35,313 nt of DNA from Actinomycetota bacterium (GTDB lineage Bacteria; Actinomycetota; Actinomycetes; S36-B12): assembly GCA_947449945.1 (NCBI GenBank), contig CANFTO010000009.1, forward strand, positions 1 to 35,313, read 5' to 3'. The position numbers were made by a program, and so were the translations under genes. Positions 21,706 to 31,625 of the stretch are shown in pieces. How positions within the stretch are numbered: the stretch's first letter is position 1; every line of letters begins with the position of its first letter. The notes below the pieces were generated by a model. The model was given only the letters and a program-made list of their open reading frames with translations, searched no databases and had not been told where the DNA came from.

Positions 21706-21776
21706 GCGGGCGTAGTTCAGTGGTAGAACACCAGCTTCCCAAGCTGGATATGCGGGTTCGATTCCCGTCGCCCGCT
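21706..21776 (+). tRNA. tRNA-Gly (anticodon CCC)
   Basis: A 71-nt cloverleaf: acceptor GCGGGCG pairs with CGCCCGC (21769-21775), discriminator T at 21776. The D arm begins GTTCAGTGGTAGAAC, the anticodon stem CCAGC/GCTGG encloses loop TTCCCAA (anticodon CCC), and the T arm is CGGGTTCGATTCCCG. The 3' CCA is not encoded. It reads the GGG codon. It lies on the plus strand between minus-strand genes and ends 4 nt before the next stop codon. Confidence 0.97.
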
Positions 21777-21780
21777 CTGA

Positions 21781-22200
21781 TCAGCCGTCGCCACACATGT
21801 CTTCGTTAATTAACAACGAACCGAGCTTGCCTGGCGTGATATTGGCACCCGACCAGTGGTATTTCGCGTACTGGTACGTGTAGGCGTTAACAACGAGTGG
21901 GTTCGATGCACTCTTGACATCGCTGCACACAGATTCGGTGATAGCCGATGATGTCGCATTGGCCGGCAACGCCATGATGCTTGGCGCGGCCTCCATAAGC
22001 CTGTTCAGCACATATGGATTCGGTTTGCCATTCGTGCAAAGAATCGGGCCGAAGGTGCCGTTGGCATAGGTCTTGACCGCCGGGCACGGATTCTTCGCCG
22101 ACGGTGCTGCGTGTGCGACTGGAGCCAGCATGGCCAACATCGCCAGTGCGGAGGATGAGGCAAAGCCCAGGCTGACGAGGACTAGATTTCGATCACGCAT
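21781..22200 (-). CDS. Small secreted four-cysteine protein of unknown function
   Basis: No family recognised. It has 139 residues: a signal peptide MRDRNLVLVSLGFASSSALA plus further hydrophobic residues, cut predicted after PVAHA, then about 108 mature residues. Four Cys (NPCPAVK, ILCTNG, SVCSDV, DMCGDG) could form two disulfides outside the cell. ATG 22200 is chosen over 22218 because AAGGGAG lies just upstream and the resulting signal peptide is canonical. The last Cys is four residues from the C-terminus. The upstream region contains two overlapping inverted repeats (22233-22294). The 3' end is only 4 nt from tRNA-Gly on the opposite strand. Confidence 0.75.
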   Translation of the reverse strand: MRDRNLVLVSLGFASSSALAMLAMLAPVAHAAPSAKNPCPAVKTYANGTFGPILCTNGKPNPYVLNRLMEAAPSIMALPANATSSAITESVCSDVKSASNPLVVNAYTYQYAKYHWSGANITPGKLGSLLINEDMCGDG

Positions 22201-22232
22201 GTTCACTCCCTTAAACAAGTGACATGAACGTA

Positions 22233-22762: not shown

Positions 22763-24799
22763 TCAGCGCCGCAACGTTTGGGCAAACAACGAAGTGAGAG
22801 TCTTTGCGGCACCGATCGAGATGTGCCCGTCATCACGATAGAGGTAGGTCGCGCCCAACTGAGTGGTGCAGAGATTTTTCGGGCAGAAATGATCACGCAG
22901 GTCGACCACCGTTGCGCCTGTTTTTTCACCGACGGCATCGATGGCATCGCGGGCAGCTTGCTGATTCTGGTCAGCAAAACTGCGCGGCATCTGGGTGCCG
23001 AGGTTCTCGCCGCTTGCTATCTGTAGCACTGAGAACTGATGTGGATCTGATGCGTATGGGCTGGCGAAGTACGGAACGTCCTGAACCAGAATTACTCGGT
23101 GGCCCGAAGCCTGTAGCTGTTCGACCGTCGACTTCAATCCAGATTGAAGACTGTGCCGCTTTGCATCAACTTCGTTTGTTAACGAGTCTTTCGTGAGACC
23201 TGCACTAAATACTTTGGAATTCCAATAGACACTGGAAGAGGAAAGAATCACGGTTCCGGGTGGCTGTTGCTTGAGCCATGTCAATGTTTTTTGCACAAAT
23301 GCGCGGCACGGTGATTTTGGTGCGGCCGTTGAGTGCAAATAGACGTCAAAGAACGGGCAAGCGTTTGCTGTGTCAATGGTGAGTGGATCATTAAGTTCCT
23401 TAGTTGCAGCAATGACTGCTTCGCTTAGATGATCAGCATGCGAATCACCGATGAGATACACAGGAGTGCCTGTGCCATCCGCATTCCAGACACATTTCGT
23501 TGCTTTGCGATCACTCGGAGCAATTGACTTGTTACATCCAGCTGCATTTCCAGCATGCATTGGTTGAACGGTTGCGATGAATTGCTGGACCCTAGTGTTC
23601 CAAAAACCGTTGTCAGCCGCATTCCACAATCCCATGGCCAACACGATCGGTGGAATCATCGTGCAGGCGATGATCACCGACATTTTGCGTTTGCTGACTT
23701 TGCGGAGGTTGCGAATCGGCTGTTCAAGCCATTGGTACGAAAGCAACGAAGGAACGAGCGAGAGCCCTGCCGCGATGACTGCGATACCTGGCACGGTTGG
23801 CCACAGCATGAGGGCGAAAACGATGAACGGCCAATGCCAGAGGTATAGCGAATACGAAATATTGCCGACGTGCACGAATGGCGACCGTCCAAGGAAATGG
23901 CTCACTGCATTGGATTGCGCATATCCCGCAGCCAGCAACAACATCGTGCTGACAACCGGCAAGATTGTGAGCGGCCCAGGCCAGATGGTCTGGTCATTTA
24001 CCAAGTAGAGCGAAAGCGCAAGCCCCGCAATGCCGAGCGAACCGAGTACTAAACCAAGATGTTTGGAAACAGCTGGTTCAATTTTGAAGGCAAACAAAGC
24101 CAAGATCGCGCCAGCTGCGAACTCCCATGCGCGACTCGTCGGGCCGTAGAAACCGCTCAGCCAACTTGGCAGCAATGGAATCGTGCGCCCTGCAGCCTCA
24201 AGCATCGCAATAGCGAACGAAACTGCACCGACAATTCCCACGAACACAAAAGGCATAAAGCGGGTTGTCTTCTTGCGTGCCAATTTCCAACCGAGGAAAA
24301 GCACGAGCGGAAAGATCAAATAGAACTGCTCTTCAACTGATAACGACCACGTATTCAAAAGTGGGTTTGATGCAGCAGGTGCATCAAAGTAACCACCCGT
24401 GGTTTTCGCAATCACAATGTTGGCGCTCAGGAGTAGTGCACCTATGCCAGTTTTTGCTGCAACTTGTTGATCGCCCATAGGCGAAGCAATAAACACCGAT
24501 AGAACCACTACACCCACAACAAGTAGTGCAAGTGCTGGTGTTAAGCGACGAAATCTTCGTGCATAAAAGGTAGAGAAGCGCAGGGTTTGATCCTTTGCCC
24601 ATTCTCGCCCAAGCATCGCTGTGATCACGAAACCAGAAATCACAAAGAAAACGTCAACGCCCAGAAAACCGCCTGGAACGGGCAAGCCAGCATGGAAGGC
24701 GACCACTGTTCCAACTGCGATTGCGCGCAAGCCTTGAATGTCATCACGCCGATTTTGATGGACGGGGCTCTGGATCGCAGAGGGACTGCTGTGTGCCAT
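22763..24799 (-). CDS. Acyltransferase-3 (OafA/YrhL-type) with C-terminal SGNH domain
   Basis: Membrane O-acyltransferase of 678 residues. The N-terminal acyltransferase-3 domain (residues about 18-370, roughly ten TM segments) starts with RRDDIQGLRAIAVGTVVAFHAG and GGFLGVDVFFVISGFVIT, and SLSVEEQFYLIFP carries the conserved motif. The C-terminal periplasmic SGNH domain has YLIGDSHADHLSEAV (nucleophile Ser) and RDDGHISIGAAKTL (catalytic Asp/His). Such fusions transfer acetyl or other acyl groups to surface glycans. ATG 24799 has GGAGGG 4 nt upstream. It is divergent from the sulfatase gene across 171 bp. The polymer acylated is unknown; the surface-polymer genes downstream on the other side suggest a candidate. 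Confidence 0.93.
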   Translation of the reverse strand: MAHSSPSAIQSPVHQNRRDDIQGLRAIAVGTVVAFHAGLPVPGGFLGVDVFFVISGFVITAMLGREWAKDQTLRFSTFYARRFRRLTPALALLVVGVVVLSVFIASPMGDQQVAAKTGIGALLLSANIVIAKTTGGYFDAPAASNPLLNTWSLSVEEQFYLIFPLVLFLGWKLARKKTTRFMPFVFVGIVGAVSFAIAMLEAAGRTIPLLPSWLSGFYGPTSRAWEFAAGAILALFAFKIEPAVSKHLGLVLGSLGIAGLALSLYLVNDQTIWPGPLTILPVVSTMLLLAAGYAQSNAVSHFLGRSPFVHVGNISYSLYLWHWPFIVFALMLWPTVPGIAVIAAGLSLVPSLLSYQWLEQPIRNLRKVSKRKMSVIIACTMIPPIVLAMGLWNAADNGFWNTRVQQFIATVQPMHAGNAAGCNKSIAPSDRKATKCVWNADGTGTPVYLIGDSHADHLSEAVIAATKELNDPLTIDTANACPFFDVYLHSTAAPKSPCRAFVQKTLTWLKQQPPGTVILSSSSVYWNSKVFSAGLTKDSLTNEVDAKRHSLQSGLKSTVEQLQASGHRVILVQDVPYFASPYASDPHQFSVLQIASGENLGTQMPRSFADQNQQAARDAIDAVGEKTGATVVDLRDHFCPKNLCTTQLGATYLYRDDGHISIGAAKTLTSLFAQTLRR

Positions 24800-24970
24800 T
24801 TACCCTCCTGAACCAGTTCACTGCGGATGCGAATCGGCAGTCTATGGGGCCATTTCGGGTCAGGAACGAGAGCAACACCACCCACGTGCGGTCTCGTATG
24901 GGTCAATTACTGACGTATTCTTGAAGACCTGTCTCTAGGACAGTCCACAACCTTCCCCGGGAGCGCCACC

Positions 24971-26656
24971 TTGACCGAAGTGCACGGCCGAAAGCGGGCC
25001 GAACTCACGACAGCCACGTTGGTCACCATCGGTGTTGTCGTCGCTGTGTTCGCACTGATTTTGGTTGGAACAACGAAGGCAGCCCGCGCGGGAGAAGCTG
25101 GGCCCGATGCCACGCCTACAACAGGCGCGAGTGCAGATGCCACATCATCGCCCGAAATTCAGCCTGCAGTTGGGTCACTCACCGATATTAAAAATGTTGT
25201 CATGATCTTGGCTGATGACCTTGATTGGGCAGCCTTTGATCAAGTACCTCGTTTAGCGGCACTCAAGAACGAGGGCACCACGCTTTCTGACTTCGTCGTC
25301 ACCGATTCCTTGTGCTGCCCATCGCGAACATCGTTCATGCGAAGCCAATATGTGCACAACCATCGAGTGATCTCGAATGTGAAAGCAACCGGTGGCGGTT
25401 GGGAGAAGTTCTTTTCACGTGGCCTTGAAAAGGATTGCCTGCCAACCTGGCTACAGAAGTCAGGAGTGAATACCTCACTCATTGGTAAGTACCTCAATGG
25501 TTTCCCAAATGGAACGCCCGCACCTACCTACATTCCTCCTGGCTACAACTACTTCGTCACATCAACGTCGAAGAATCAGGCGTATCAAGGTTTTGATTAC
25601 ACTTTAAATGAAAATGGGACATTAAAGGATTACGGTCATGCGCCGGCAGACTTTCTCAATGGTGTTCTGTTAAAGAACGCAGCGTCGTACATGAAAACTC
25701 TGAAGACACCGTTTTTCATGGAATTCGCTTCCTATAACCCACACACACCTGCACCGTATGAAGCTAAGTACGCAAATACGCACACCAATGACACCATTCC
25801 GCGTACCGCTGCTTTCAATGCGGTAGGGACAAATGAATTGGGATGGATTGCCGCACGCAAGGTCCTCACGCCGCATCGCGTTGCAAACCTTGATCGTCTG
25901 TGGCAAAAGCGCTTACGTTCCGCCGAATCGATTGCAGACACATATGAGGTTCTGCAAGCGCAACTCAAAGCAACGGGTCATGCTGATGACACACTCATCA
26001 TTCTCACTTCAGACAATGGCTACCACGCCGGCGTTCATCGCCTTGCAACCGGGAAACAAACGGCTTTTAAGGAAGATGCTGTTGTCCCTACGCTCTTCAT
26101 CGGCCCAGGTATTTCTAAAGGCGCAGTGATTTCTCAGGTCACTTCTATGGTTGATCTTGGACCAACAATCAGCTCAATCTTTGGAGCGAAGACTCCTTCA
26201 TATGTTGATGGAAGAAATCTTGCGCCACTCCTACGTGGTGAGGCAGCAACACCATGGCGCACTGCAACACTGACCGAAAACCTCAGCCGCACGCGTCCCG
26301 GTGATCCTGACTACTCACCATTCGAAGCACCTGCATTCCATGCCTTGCGCAGTAACCAGTGGCTGTACATCGAGTACGTGAATGGCGATGTTGAGCTGTA
26401 TGACCTTAAGAATGACCCGCTGGAAATGAACAATGTGCAAGCGGCAACTAATCCAGCCATCGTTGCGCAACTACACGCCCAACTACATGCGTTACGTAAC
26501 TGCGAAGGTGCAAGTTGCCGAGTTGCCGATGCAATGCCAAATGGCACTTCGATCCTGCCATTTCCTCAAGTAACTGGTGAGCCAACTGCGACTCCGTCGG
26601 TATCAAATACTGCGACACCAACGCCGACTACTTCTGCAACATCACTCGTTCAATAA
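24971..26656 (+). CDS. Membrane-anchored type I sulfatase
   Basis: Hydrolase of sulfate esters, 561 residues. An N-terminal membrane anchor (residues about 13-34, ATLVTIGVVVAVFALILVG) precedes a low-complexity Thr/Ala linker. The catalytic domain has metal ligands in MILADDLDWAAF (Asp82, Asp83), the formylglycine signature CCPSR (Cys115 as C-x-P-S-R) and LTSDNGYHAGVH. The tail is Pro/Thr-rich (TATPSVSNTATPTPTTS). Activity requires a formylglycine-generating enzyme not seen in this window. The start is TTG at 24971 with GGGAG 7 nt upstream. It overlaps the convergent GT2/glycerophosphotransferase gene by 29 bp at the 3' end. Substrate is unknown; sulfated glycan is likely. Confidence 0.92.
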   Translation: MTEVHGRKRAELTTATLVTIGVVVAVFALILVGTTKAARAGEAGPDATPTTGASADATSSPEIQPAVGSLTDIKNVVMILADDLDWAAFDQVPRLAALKNEGTTLSDFVVTDSLCCPSRTSFMRSQYVHNHRVISNVKATGGGWEKFFSRGLEKDCLPTWLQKSGVNTSLIGKYLNGFPNGTPAPTYIPPGYNYFVTSTSKNQAYQGFDYTLNENGTLKDYGHAPADFLNGVLLKNAASYMKTLKTPFFMEFASYNPHTPAPYEAKYANTHTNDTIPRTAAFNAVGTNELGWIAARKVLTPHRVANLDRLWQKRLRSAESIADTYEVLQAQLKATGHADDTLIILTSDNGYHAGVHRLATGKQTAFKEDAVVPTLFIGPGISKGAVISQVTSMVDLGPTISSIFGAKTPSYVDGRNLAPLLRGEAATPWRTATLTENLSRTRPGDPDYSPFEAPAFHALRSNQWLYIEYVNGDVELYDLKNDPLEMNNVQAATNPAIVAQLHAQLHALRNCEGASCRVADAMPNGTSILPFPQVTGEPTATPSVSNTATPTPTTSATSLVQ

Positions 26657-28871
26657 CTTGTTGCGCTGCAGTTCCTTGGTCAAACTCACAAAAACGAGCA
26701 CGGAAGGCACGTAGTCGTTCGTTGCTTTCAGCGGAAGCAAAAAGTTCAGCCGCAAAGATCTCATTAACTTGCGCTTGGTTAGTGGCCACCGCTCCTGGTG
26801 GAGTTTCTAAGAGATCAAAGTAAGTCCCTCGCGCATCGCCATATGCTTCCCAATCATCGGCGAAGATCACGATTGGTCGATTCAGTACGGCATAGTCGAA
26901 CATCACTGACGAATAATCCGTGATGAGAACATCAGCCGCAAGATAGCAATCGATAATCGATGGGAATGCAGAACCATCAATAACGCGACCTGACTTCACA
27001 AGTTCTTTTACTTTCGGGCCAAGAGTTGTCGTGTGATGAGCGCGCAAAATGAATACGTATGAATCGTCAACGCGGCCAATCAGTTCTTCGAAATTTATGC
27101 GAAGTGAACTATCGCCTTCGACATCTCGGTACGTGGGCGCGTAGAGCACCACTTTCTGATCTGCTCGTACCCCGATCCGGGCCCGGGCCTCCGCGATGTC
27201 ATTGACACCAGCATTCACAAGTACGTCATTGCGCGGATAGCCCACTTCAAGCCAGGTGTACTGACATGGGTAGGCATGGCCCCACATTTCGGTGGAATAA
27301 GCGTTGGAACTAATCGCGTAATCCCAGTTGTCACTTCTGCGTAAGAGGTCAGCAAATTCTTGACGACTGCGCGAAGGATCAAGGGCCACTACTTGGTCAC
27401 CCTTGCGTGGGGCAACGCGTTTTGGATCGATTGCGGAGCTTGCAACAGCGTTGTTCATGACATCAAGGCCACAGTATTTCAACGGAGTTCCATGCATCGT
27501 TTGAATAACAATTTGCTCAGGACGCTTCTTAAAGGCCCCGGGGAAGTTCACGTTGTTCACGAAGAATTTTGCTCTTGCAAATACGGCCCACTGCTTCAAG
27601 GTGTTGGGTGCCACATGCTTCACCCCTGGCGGCAATTTGCTGACCTTGTCCTTTTCAATTACCCACACGGCAGTGAGATTCGGTGCATGCAGTGGCATCG
27701 CTTCATAAATTGCACGTGGGTTGCAGCCATAACCAGTTCCCCAATATTCGGAGAACACCACAACATTTTTCTTGATAGGCAACATGCGAAAGAAGCCATA
27801 CCAAAGGCGACCAACTGCACGGACTTTGCGCACAGTTCGGCGCACGGGCCAGTAGATCTTGCCTACGAAGCGACGAGTGGGTACGCGGCGCTCGTCAACC
27901 CAGCTATACAACTTGAATGTTGTGTACGAGTTATTGCGAAAAAGTTTTCCGCGGATGTTGCTCGGAAGATTTTTGCCATGTTCATCGGAATTTTTGGGAT
28001 AGTGCTTTCTGGATGATTCCGAAGCAGCTGCAAAGAAACGTTTCCGTTCTGCCTTTGCAATGCGACCACGGTGACGAATGATCGTGACGTAGTGATTCAC
28101 CATGATGTCGTACAAATGTTTACGCATTCCATCACTCACATCTGCGCGGTCTGCTTCAACAAACACTCGGTCGTACTGCGCAAATACATCAAAGTGTCGA
28201 GGACTTGGAGTCCCAAGAATGTTGCCACCTGAGCGACGCTGCCGATACAGCAACACCACTCTGTTCAAGGAAACTGCGCGCTGAGCGTTTAGGAGCACTG
28301 CGTAGGTGTAAGAAATATCTTCATACAGACCAGTCGGGAATTGCACACCAAGGGCTTGCAAAAAATCACGGCGATACGCCTTGTTGCAGGCAATCGGTAA
28401 GAGATTAAATAGTCGCCGATGATCCTGTGGTCTAAAAGTTCCAACAGACAGGTTCGCAAGAAGCTCCGCACCCCAGCTCACTGCTTCCTTACCGTCCCAC
28501 CACACTCGCGAATAGTTGTAGATCAAAATTTCTGGAAGTTGATTGCGTTGAAGTTTCTCCGCAATAGCTTTGAGCGAACCCGGCGCAAAAGTGTCATCAC
28601 CGTCAAGGAACAAGATGTAGTCGCCGTGAGCGGCTTCCACTCCCGTGTTGCGCGCCTGCCCCAGACCAACATTTTTTTCAAGATGAAGAACGCGAACCCT
28701 TGAGTCTGCGCAGGCTAGTTCGTCAGCAATCTGACCACTGTGATCCGGCGTGCAGTCATCAACGATGACAACCTCAAAATCTTCGAAGTCCTGCTCGAGC
28801 ACAGATTCCACCGCAGCGCGCAGGTACGACTGCACGTTGTAGACCGGAACGATGATGGAGAAGAACGCCAT
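26628..28871 (-). CDS. GT2 glycosyltransferase - CDP-glycerol glycerophosphotransferase fusion (TagF-like)
   Basis: Two-domain protein of 747 residues. Residues 3-220 are a GT-A family 2 glycosyltransferase (FFSIIVPVYNVQSYL, DFEVVIVDDCTPD, FLDGDD as metal/nucleotide site at 88-93, GLYEDISYTY). Residues about 365-740 are a TagF/TagB-like glycerophosphotransferase: VVVFSEYWGTGYGCNPRAIYEAM, QTMHGTPLKYCG (His460), LYAPTYRD (577-583), ILRAHH and LITDYSSVMFDY (649-660). Together they could add a sugar and polymerise glycerol-phosphate at the cytoplasmic face. ATG 28871 is preferred to GTG 28910 since the GT2 fold begins there; TATTCT just upstream suggests a leaderless message. It is divergent from the sulfotransferase and convergent with the sulfatase. 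Confidence 0.92.
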   Translation of the reverse strand: MAFFSIIVPVYNVQSYLRAAVESVLEQDFEDFEVVIVDDCTPDHSGQIADELACADSRVRVLHLEKNVGLGQARNTGVEAAHGDYILFLDGDDTFAPGSLKAIAEKLQRNQLPEILIYNYSRVWWDGKEAVSWGAELLANLSVGTFRPQDHRRLFNLLPIACNKAYRRDFLQALGVQFPTGLYEDISYTYAVLLNAQRAVSLNRVVLLYRQRRSGGNILGTPSPRHFDVFAQYDRVFVEADRADVSDGMRKHLYDIMVNHYVTIIRHRGRIAKAERKRFFAAASESSRKHYPKNSDEHGKNLPSNIRGKLFRNNSYTTFKLYSWVDERRVPTRRFVGKIYWPVRRTVRKVRAVGRLWYGFFRMLPIKKNVVVFSEYWGTGYGCNPRAIYEAMPLHAPNLTAVWVIEKDKVSKLPPGVKHVAPNTLKQWAVFARAKFFVNNVNFPGAFKKRPEQIVIQTMHGTPLKYCGLDVMNNAVASSAIDPKRVAPRKGDQVVALDPSRSRQEFADLLRRSDNWDYAISSNAYSTEMWGHAYPCQYTWLEVGYPRNDVLVNAGVNDIAEARARIGVRADQKVVLYAPTYRDVEGDSSLRINFEELIGRVDDSYVFILRAHHTTTLGPKVKELVKSGRVIDGSAFPSIIDCYLAADVLITDYSSVMFDYAVLNRPIVIFADDWEAYGDARGTYFDLLETPPGAVATNQAQVNEIFAAELFASAESNERLRAFRARFCEFDQGTAAQQVIERVMLQK

Positions 28872-28959
28872 AGGTGATGAGAATAGGCGGTGACCTTGCG
28901 ACTCTCCCACGCACGAAACTTTGAGAAGGGAAAAAGCCGCGCTGTAGTAGGGTCAACAG

Positions 28960-29856
28960 GTGAATTCAGGCGGAGCAGATTGCTTAAATCCCGTTCTCGT
29001 TGGTGGAACCGGCCGTAGCGGCTCAACCATCACAGGTCAGCTCTTGGGGCAGCATCCCGACCTCTTTTTGACCGATCCACCTGAGATTCGGTTTCTGGCC
29101 AATGACCATGGTGTTGCTGAGGCACTGACCATGACTCGTGGCGGCTGGATGACCCGTCGCAAGGCCAAATCAGAAGCTAAATTCTGCCTAGAACGCACAA
29201 AAACTCTCTGGTTCTGGCGTGCCGCAAAAATCGGGCTGCATACGTCAATTTCCATCGAAGAAGTTGATGCTCTAGGTAAGACCTACCTCGATGATTTTGG
29301 TCGCGATCCTGTCGCAGCTTCGCAAGCCTTCACATACGCGATTATGCGAAAAGTTGCTGCACTTGCGAATGGGCGCCGCTGGGTTGATACGACTCCAGCA
29401 AATTCACGAATCTCAGAACAAATTGAGCCGATCTATCCAGATTCACAGGTCATTTCAATGATTCGTGATGGTCGAGATGTCGCGGCATCCTTTGTTGCTC
29501 AGACTTTTGGACCCAACGAGATCTTTGCCTCCCTTCGTCAATGGGAGAAGCGTTCACTTCTGATTCATCAGGCCACATTGGCAAGTCGCCCAGGGCGATG
29601 CATCATCGTCGACATGCTTGATCTTGTTGATCGGGATCGCGACAACACACTTCAACTCATTTGTGACTTCATTGACGTTCCCGTTGACCCAGGCATGAAG
29701 GCTTGGTTTGACGAAACTGTTAACGCACAAAATGCGAATGTCGGCCGATGGCGTACGCAATTTGACGCGGAAACCACGAAGGAAATCGACCGGGTCTACG
29801 GGGAAATGGTCGAACGCCTTCGGGCGCAAGGCGTGCAAATCCCGCTTGAGTCATAG
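28960..29856 (+). CDS. Sulfotransferase family protein (PAPS-dependent)
   Basis: Cytoplasmic enzyme of 298 residues. The 5'-phosphosulfate loop is VLVGGTGRSGSTITGQLL (residues about 12-29), and the 3'-phosphate-binding region is SQVISMIRDGRDVAASFV, the hallmark pair of Sulfotransferase_3-type proteins that use PAPS. C-terminal residues include QNANVGRWRTQF, common in this family. The acceptor is unknown. Start GTG 28960 has TAGGG upstream. It opens a plus-strand gene row followed 12 nt later by the TagG-like permease and then the TagH-like ATPase, so sulfation of the exported polymer or its precursor is the natural hypothesis. Sulfation of another molecule cannot be excluded. Confidence 0.9.
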   Translation: MNSGGADCLNPVLVGGTGRSGSTITGQLLGQHPDLFLTDPPEIRFLANDHGVAEALTMTRGGWMTRRKAKSEAKFCLERTKTLWFWRAAKIGLHTSISIEEVDALGKTYLDDFGRDPVAASQAFTYAIMRKVAALANGRRWVDTTPANSRISEQIEPIYPDSQVISMIRDGRDVAASFVAQTFGPNEIFASLRQWEKRSLLIHQATLASRPGRCIIVDMLDLVDRDRDNTLQLICDFIDVPVDPGMKAWFDETVNAQNANVGRWRTQFDAETTKEIDRVYGEMVERLRAQGVQIPLES

Positions 29857-29868
29857 ACTGAAGTGGTC

Positions 29869-30783
29869 ATGAACCCTCCTACTCCAGCAGAAACTCGCCC
29901 TGTGCAGGTTTTTCTGCCACATCGAGCTGGATTGCCTCGCCTTGCCCCATATTTCAGGAACCTGTGGAATCGTCGTCACTTCGCCGTTGAGCTATCGCGT
30001 GCCTCCATGCGATCGGCACACACGAACACCTTCTTTGGTCAGTTTTGGCTTGTTATTGGCCCGGCACTCAATGCTGCGGTGTACTTCCTGCTTGTTAACG
30101 TTATTCGCGGCGGTAACGCGGGACCTAACTTCTTTATGCACTTGCTGGCCGGTCTCTTTGCTTTCAACTTCATCCAAGCTGTGATGACCAATGGTGCAAC
30201 CTCGGTTACTAAGGGTGGGAATCTTGTACTCAATACAGCATTCCCACTGCTGTTGCTGCCCTTCTCAGCCTTGCGAACGGCATTTTTCCGCTTCGTTCCT
30301 TCTCTGATTATTTTGTTTGCATTCTTCATTTACTTTGATTACTTCGGTTCACACGCTCAACATTGTGTTGCGGCAACTGGGGTTTGTGAAGAACTCAATA
30401 CCATTCACTTTTCCCCAGTGATGTTCATGGCCATCCCAGCAATGCTGCTGATATTTGTTTTTGCTGCAGGGCTTTCCGCTCTTATGGCTTCCGTTCAAAT
30501 TTACTTCCGAGACACCACGCAGATTCTTCCGTATGCAACACGAATCTGGTTGTACTTGTCACCTGTGCTCTACTACGCGGATCAGATGAAGCCGTGGATG
30601 CTCAAATTCGAGATGTTCAACCCTCTGTACCCGCTCCTTGGTATCTGGAGCGAAAGTCTTGTTGAAGGCAAAATGCCTCCATTGACCTGGTGGATTGCTT
30701 CTGCTGCTTGGGCCTTCGGTTCGCTCCTCGTGGGTGTGCTGTTCTTTATGTCTCGCGAACGTGAGTTCGCGGTGCGGATTTGA
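29869..30783 (+). CDS. ABC-2 type polysaccharide/teichoic acid export permease (TagG-like)
   Basis: Membrane subunit of a glycan exporter, 304 residues from ATG 29869 (GTG 29863 is in frame and possible). An N-terminal amphipathic segment (YFRNLWNRRHFAVELSRASMRSAHTNTFFGQFWLVIGPALNAAVYFLLV) and about six TM segments are typical of ABC-2 permeases; SVQIYFRDTTQILPYATRIWLYLSPVLYYADQMKPWM and LFNPLYPLLG-like FEMFNPLYPLLGIW are the family's conserved cytoplasmic and loop motifs. It pairs with the ATPase encoded immediately downstream, separated by a hairpin at 30754-30771 and a strong Shine-Dalgarno. Lipid-linked polymer would be the cargo. Confidence 0.9.
   Translation: MNPPTPAETRPVQVFLPHRAGLPRLAPYFRNLWNRRHFAVELSRASMRSAHTNTFFGQFWLVIGPALNAAVYFLLVNVIRGGNAGPNFFMHLLAGLFAFNFIQAVMTNGATSVTKGGNLVLNTAFPLLLLPFSALRTAFFRFVPSLIILFAFFIYFDYFGSHAQHCVAATGVCEELNTIHFSPVMFMAIPAMLLIFVFAAGLSALMASVQIYFRDTTQILPYATRIWLYLSPVLYYADQMKPWMLKFEMFNPLYPLLGIWSESLVEGKMPPLTWWIASAAWAFGSLLVGVLFFMSREREFAVRI
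30754..30771 (+). promoter_or_regulatory. Hairpin at the permease/ATPase junction
   Basis: Perfect 7-bp stem CGCGAAC (30754-30760) / GTTCGCG (30765-30771) with loop GTGA, a GNRA-type tetraloop. It lies in the last codons of the permease and 19 nt before the GGAGG of the ATPase gene. It could affect relative translation or RNA processing, or be coincidental codon use. Confidence 0.4.
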
Positions 30784-30800
30784 TGCGGAAGGAGGCAGAG

Positions 30801-31625
30801 ATGATTGATGAAGAAACTGGCGCAACGATTCCCACTGCCCCTGAGCGTGCGATCTCAGACGAAATTGCAATTTCTGTACAAGAGCTCGATGTCACGTATC
30901 GCACTACCTTTGAAAAACGCCCAACTCTGAAGCAGGCAATTGTTCGCCTTGGTCGCGGAAAACGATCTGTGAAAACAGTTGAAGCGCTGAAGAATGTTTC
31001 ATTCGATGTGAATCGCGGATCAGTTCTTGGAATCGTTGGCCACAATGGCGCTGGCAAGAGCACGCTGATGCGAGCCATTGCAGGCATTGTGCCTCCGACT
31101 CAGGGGCGCATTGAAGTTGTTGGTCGCACAAGTACTTTGCTTTCCCTTGGTGTCGGTTTCAACCGGGCACTGACTGGCCGTGAAAACGTGATTCTTGGCG
31201 GTCTTGCCGCAGGACTCACTAAGGATGAGCTCGAAGATCGTTATGAACGCATCGCGGAATTTGCAGGCTTGGGCGACTTCATTGACATGCCAATGAATAC
31301 GTACTCATCTGGCATGGGAGCGCGCCTTGCTTTTAGCGTTGCAGTGCACCTCGATCCAGACATCCTTCTTATCGATGAGGCACTCTCTACTGGCGATGCC
31401 GTCTTTAAAGAAAAAGCAACCGCAAGAATGCAAGAACTTGTCGACAACTCAAGCACCATGCTTCTCATCTCCCATGCTCTGCGCACAATCATCAACATGA
31501 GCACTGAATGCATCTGGCTTGATCACGGAAAATTGATGATGCGCGGCAATCCCGAGGAAGTTGTTGATGCGTACACCGAGTTCGTGCATGTCAAGAAGAC
31601 CAGCGCGACCATGAACGACATGTAG
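30801..31625 (+). CDS. ABC polysaccharide/teichoic acid export ATPase (TagH-like)
   Basis: Nucleotide-binding subunit of 274 residues. Walker A is GHNGAGKST (80-88), the signature TYSSGMGARLAFS (167-179), Walker B DILLIDEAL (187-195), and the switch His is in LLISHALRTI. The N-terminal insertion RTTFEKRPTLKQAIVRLGRGKRSVKTVEALKNVSF is characteristic of TagH/Wzt-type exporters. There is no C-terminal carbohydrate-binding extension as in long Wzt proteins. ATG 30801 is chosen because GGAGG lies 5 nt upstream; the frame is open back to 30780, overlapping the permease stop. It works with the preceding permease. It converges on the DHA2 transporter with a 2-bp gap. Confidence 0.94.
   Translation: MIDEETGATIPTAPERAISDEIAISVQELDVTYRTTFEKRPTLKQAIVRLGRGKRSVKTVEALKNVSFDVNRGSVLGIVGHNGAGKSTLMRAIAGIVPPTQGRIEVVGRTSTLLSLGVGFNRALTGRENVILGGLAAGLTKDELEDRYERIAEFAGLGDFIDMPMNTYSSGMGARLAFSVAVHLDPDILLIDEALSTGDAVFKEKATARMQELVDNSSTMLLISHALRTIINMSTECIWLDHGKLMMRGNPEEVVDAYTEFVHVKKTSATMNDM

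Follow-up and report, generated by a model that had tools for sequence, protein, structure and literature searches.

We identified six adjacent genes in the genome of an uncultured planktonic actinobacterium, a member of Candidatus Nanopelagicales, that probably form an envelope-polymer module for making a sulfated, phosphodiester-linked surface polymer. The window, that is, the whole stretch of 35,313 nucleotides that was analysed, is contig C9 of this genome (1.9 Mb, 88% complete). A sulfated surface polymer is a well-supported proposal because the three genes at the centre of the module are conserved and co-inherited, a conserved polymer locus is linked to them and the genome encodes PAPS synthesis.

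The six genes lie at positions 22763-31625 of the window. An AT3 acyltransferase with SGNH domain (OafA-like; 22763-24799, minus strand; PF01757, Acyl_transf_3, E value 4.6e-26; PF19040, 5e-39) is followed by a sulfatase with an N-terminal membrane segment and a CCPSR motif (24971-26656, plus strand; PF00884, 9.3e-40; SGSH_C, 3.7e-13) and by a GT2 (GT-A) plus TagF-like polymerase (26628-28910, minus strand; PF00535, 8e-39; PF04464, Glyphos_transf, 9.6e-106). Next come a PAPS-dependent sulfotransferase of the Sulfotransfer_3 family (28960-29856, plus strand; PF13469, 6.9e-20), an ABC-2 exporter permease of the Wzm/TagG class (29863-30783, plus strand; galactan exporter permease, 4e-14; PF01061, 6e-6) and an ABC exporter ATPase of the Wzt/TagH class (30780-31625, plus strand; galactan Wzt, 6e-64; TagH, 1e-52). 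The genes named in the original prediction, for polymerase, sulfotransferase, exporter, sulfatase and acyltransferase-SGNH protein, are thus all present where it had placed them. The sulfatase and polymerase genes are convergent and overlap by 29 bases, and the polymerase and sulfotransferase genes are divergent with 49 bases between them. Only 6 bases separate the sulfotransferase gene from that of the permease, which in turn overlaps the ATPase gene by 4 bases. Elsewhere in the window, a gene for a 145-amino-acid secreted protein without a Pfam match (21781-22218, minus strand) adjoins a tRNA-Gly(ccc) at 21706-21777.

We refer to the sulfatase, polymerase and sulfotransferase genes as the triad, and surveyed them in 85 genomes of the family, 41 of which are at least 90% complete. 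A full-length polymerase (~55-100% identity) is encoded in 25 of the 85, spread over the genus of the window (g1, 9 of 9 genomes) and four others (g2, 2 of 3; g5, 4 of 10; g9, 1 of 1; g11, 9 of 14); the remaining family genomes contain only distant matches to GT2 or TagF domains. In every one of the 25, the polymerase gene is flanked directly by those of the sulfatase and the sulfotransferase, in fixed order and orientation. Persistence of these two neighbours in relatives had been set beforehand as a test of the proposed system, and the triad is conserved across the five genera even where protein identities fall to ~46-58%. Twenty-two of the triads are on one contig and three have contig ends between the genes. 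The 22 include one from a 65% complete genome (L225, G059:C159) with frame breaks in all three genes, which are probably assembly errors.

Triad sulfotransferases group in a single, fully supported clade (100/100), separate from all others, and in the family genomes its members are always accompanied by the polymerase. Trees of the polymerase, sulfatase and sulfotransferase concur on the main groupings (g1 with g2; G034 of g9 with G046 of g11; g5 with G056 of g11), indicating that the three genes travelled together; the sequences point to transfer of the triad as a whole unit. Conservation in 25 of 25 genomes and congruent trees rule out a chance neighbourhood. Synonymous differences in the triad genes are near saturation and non-synonymous differences are few; in the pairs that are closest and least saturated, dN/dS is ~0.01-0.06. 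When 395 genomes were scanned across the class, polymerase homologs turned up in other orders, and one genus with 6-11 Mb genomes supplied many of them. Of ten 20-kb loci around polymerase homologs from outside the family, nine belong to other orders and the tenth to a different Nanopelagicales family; none contained a relative of the sulfatase or sulfotransferase, so the triad is known here from one family only. In a further genome from another family of the order (G116), the 4.4-kb contig that carries a polymerase fragment has no sulfatase gene.

The polymerase combines a GT2 domain (residues 18-187) and a TagF-like domain (residues 373-757) in one chain, and its DGDD, HGTP, RAHH and TDYSS motifs are invariant in 14 orthologs. 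The same arrangement, with GT-A at the N terminus and TagF-like at the C terminus, is found in the Gram-negative capsule polymerases Cps1B, CslB and Cps12B (PMC5974469). Those GT-A/TagF-like polymerases that have been characterised are linked to poly(oligosaccharide phosphate), and their TagF-like domain can transfer hexose-phosphate (PMC5974469). A further shared feature is that the gene adjoins an ABC exporter in many of the loci studied here. In contrast to those systems, the enzymes described here are from Actinobacteria and have dedicated sulfotransferase and sulfatase neighbours, and their donors are predicted. By analogy of domain architecture, we predict that the backbone is probably sugar-phosphate and not glycerophosphate. 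Gene content fits this prediction: TagD (TIGR01518) is over cut-off in none of the 85 family genomes, and each has one true IspD, hence no TarI paralog, so that neither the classical CDP-glycerol nor the classical CDP-ribitol supply is visible. The glycerophosphate polymer originally proposed is therefore unsupported. We consider it improbable that a teichoic polymer is made from CDP-glycerol, sulfated and exported by TagGH: the PF04464 domain agrees with such a product, TarF is the best NCBIfam match of the polymerase (214 bits against a cut-off of 550, with no TarF or TagF equivalog cut-off reached), and the linked polymer locus encodes a MobA-like NTP transferase and a CDP-alcohol transferase that could make and use another CDP-alcohol, but against it stand the missing TagD, in a sample with 41 genomes at least 90% complete, the single IspD, and an exporter nearer to galactan Wzm/Wzt models than to TagGH. 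Wall teichoic acid systems of Bacillus and Staphylococcus (TagBDFGH) share with the present genes a TagF-type domain, an ABC-2 exporter and an LCP gene (here in the linked locus), and differ from them in that here no TagD or TarI was found, a GT2 domain is fused to the polymerase, and a sulfotransferase and sulfatase are present.

The exporter is predicted to belong to the Wzm/Wzt-TagGH class and to be Wzm/Wzt-like, not specifically TagGH. For the permease, PF01061 falls just under the cut-off and the best NCBIfam match is a galactan exporter permease. The ATPase scores 215 bits with galactan Wzt (cut-off 400) and 179 bits with TagH (cut-off 320), both below the equivalog cut-offs. The exporter pair of the original prediction stands, and its TagG/TagH label was over-specific; with TagH at 179 against 320 bits and galactan Wzt higher, a TagGH identity is not diagnosable. 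This exporter pair is beside the triad only in g1 and, on the opposite side, in G002, and is missing from several triad-bearing genera; in g9 and g11, the ABC exporter beside the triad is a different one. The AT3-SGNH gene adjoins the triad in g1 and g2, and a homolog stands beside the triad in G034 and G046. Its product, an accessory of the module, may O-acylate surface glycans, and it is this gene that suggests acylation of the polymer.

Genomes lacking the triad contain a conserved polymer locus in the order EpsGT2, GT, GT2/TagF, GT4, NTP transferase, TagF-like protein, ABC permease, ABC ATPase, ST2, CDP-alcohol transferases, GT2 and LCP. The GT2 protein occurs with or without a TagF domain, the second TagF-like protein is small, the NTP transferase is MobA-like and divergent, and there are one or two CDP-alcohol transferases. 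In G034, the triad separates the ABC ATPase gene of this locus from ST2, and an AT3-SGNH gene is also present, a gene order that links the triad locus to the conserved polymer locus. Genera other than that of the window carry the triad inside the conserved locus, near a different ABC exporter, GT4, ST2 and sometimes an acyltransferase. In g11, a block of GT4, ABC exporter, triad and ST2 is set apart from the remaining locus. In g1, contig C32 carries the remaining locus, which there lacks ABC genes and ST2; the triad is accompanied by an exporter pair of its own. The part on C32 of the window's genome (G000:C32) includes an LCP gene, through which the polymer may be attached to the wall. We predict from a structure model (pLDDT 84) that ST2, a protein of 345-376 amino acids without a Pfam match, has a sulfotransferase-like fold: its best PDB match is a bacterial sulfotransferase (E value 5.7e-4), 3-O-sulfotransferases are among the next, weaker matches, and KTGTT and R-x7-S motifs are present in all copies. 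This second sulfotransferase-fold protein is beside the triad in g5, g9 and g11. A 675-amino-acid secreted protein without a Pfam match (L074:966-2993 and orthologs) is also encoded beside ST2 in the triad loci of g11. In the linked locus, the CDP-alcohol transferase (L218:9775-10593 and orthologs) has an invariant His at the expected fourth Asp (DCCDGEVAR...GxxxDRVGH).

In the sulfotransferase, the 5' motif GGTGRSGST and the 3' motif RDGRDVAAS are invariant, and the structure model (pLDDT 90) finds PAPS/PAP sulfotransferases as its best PDB matches. Its named relatives are mostly from metagenome-assembled genomes labelled Candidatus Nanopelagicales or Actinomycetota, one of them acSTL. Adjacent CysD and CysNC genes (G000:C33) provide for the PAPS synthesis on which the original prediction depended, and an APS kinase is encoded in 84 of the 85 family genomes. 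Sulfotransferase homologs outside the triad (L084, L092, L095 and L100) have a phytoene-desaturase/PYROXD2-like FAD oxidoreductase downstream. The family is therefore not tied to polymers, which rules out the sulfotransferase as a general polymer marker, and the pairing suggests another sulfated product. These different neighbours, together with closest folds that include tyrosylprotein sulfotransferases and polyketide-synthase sulfotransferase domains, would be expected if the triad enzyme sulfated a lipid, a protein or a secreted metabolite and the neighbourhood were a shared surface island, not one pathway. We give this explanation little credence, as the triad clade is separate and its members always accompany the polymerase in family genomes, the three genes are co-inherited, and other genomes have a second sulfotransferase-fold protein next to the exporter of that same locus. 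The polymer thus appears to us the likelier substrate of sulfation.

The sulfatase is predicted to be an exported or membrane-anchored member of the alkaline-phosphatase superfamily with a formylglycine motif (CCPSR). The Cys of CxPSR is invariant in 20 triad sulfatases, and DDLD and DNGYH are also conserved, in keeping with the active-site motif and metal ligands of a type I sulfatase. The original prediction had named a search for a formylglycine-generating enzyme (FGE, PF03781) elsewhere in the genome as a check; none was found in any g1 or g2 genome, that of the window included. Matches to anSME over the cut-off were found only in G065, G047, G050 and G058, of which G065 alone is from g1, and not in the window's genome. 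Most triad genomes therefore contain no known formylglycine-forming enzyme, and the sulfatase may be unmodified or act otherwise. In Escherichia coli, some sulfatases are modified although no maturation enzyme has been identified there, and an enzyme that keeps its Cys unmodified can be slow yet active (PMC6189696), so that the missing FGE and anSME are compatible with activity of the predicted sulfatase. Stand-alone sulfatase paralogs (L226-L234; ~43-60% identical), found in most family genomes and several genera, also keep CCPSR while FGE and anSME are mostly absent, making maturation a family-wide puzzle.

The sulfatase-family protein could instead resemble a phosphodiesterase or phosphonate monoester hydrolase and cut the phosphodiester backbone, setting chain length or recycling phosphate. 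The best PDB sequence match is the phosphonate monoester hydrolase 4upk (5.9e-23), PehA (a phosphoric/sulfuric ester hydrolase) is the top NCBIfam match, and the proposed substrate is itself a phosphodiester. That no FGE or anSME was found to make an efficient sulfatase might be added to these points, but phosphonate monoester hydrolases have the same formylglycine-type sulfatase sequence and their activity is raised by FGE co-expression (PMC6189696), so the missing FGE does not favour them. Given the SGSH_C domain, the sulfatase profile and a sulfotransferase linked in every triad, we regard backbone cleavage as unlikely, though deserving attention, and take the protein to be a sulfatase that may act on the polymer. 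Desulfation outside the cell is plausible and is the weakest step of the pathway, because neither FGE nor anSME was found in the window's genome although the Cys is kept. Accordingly, of the sulfated, exported and externally edited polymer first envisaged, triad linkage and PAPS synthesis argue for the sulfated surface polymer, and external editing is uncertain.

According to recent papers, few bacteria, mostly cyanobacteria, are known to make sulfated polysaccharides (PMC8205485, PMC13390465). We found no described sulfated teichoic acid, or TagF-type polymer with a sulfotransferase, in the open-access literature, in agreement with the initial claim that no such pathway had been described. 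The capsule of Cobetia marina KMM 1449 resembles our proposal in joining sulfate and phosphodiester (Rha2S, Man6PGro) in one polymer, and its cluster likewise has ABC export, PAPS and sulfotransferase genes (PMC11766843). However, it is a Gram-negative group 3 capsule, for which an LTA-synthase-like enzyme is proposed to attach GroP as a side group, and the part of the published account drawn on here describes no TagF polymerase or sulfatase (PMC11766843). The wps-1 cluster of Actinoplanes missouriensis is likewise an actinobacterial polymer cluster with two sulfotransferases and inferred sulfation, but is Wzx/Wzy-dependent, with no mention of a TagF-like polymerase or sulfatase (PMC13390465). 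Two sulfotransferases of different subfamilies are also found in the surface-polymer cluster (xss) for synechan in Synechocystis, which, unlike the genes studied here, directs a Wzx/Wzy exopolysaccharide that is not TagF-type and has a verified product (PMC8205485).

In the proposed pathway, the GT2 plus TagF-like enzyme would alternate sugar and phospho-sugar (or another phospho-alcohol) to build a phosphodiester-linked chain inside the cell, and the sulfotransferase would add sulfate to this chain with PAPS supplied by CysD/CysNC. The ABC-2 transporter would export the finished sulfated chain, the AT3-SGNH protein may acylate it, and the membrane-anchored sulfatase may remove some of the sulfate outside the cell, in editing or turnover. 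More tentatively, and with clearly less confidence than in the sulfated polymer itself, we speculate that this is a teichoic-like sulfated phosphodiester wall polymer of Gram-positive planktonic bacteria, in which one or two sulfotransferases place the sulfate inside the cell and a co-inherited sulfatase, maturing with neither FGE nor anSME, edits it outside, and in which the triad is exchanged in the manner of a serotype cassette while the locus around it is conserved. The triad makes testable the function of a Cys-type sulfatase in cells without a found maturation enzyme (FGE, anSME). If our proposal is true, sulfated surface polymers would extend to phosphodiester backbone chemistry and to a new group, the freshwater planktonic actinobacteria, and this could affect how phages attach and how sulfur and phosphorus are cycled in lakes.
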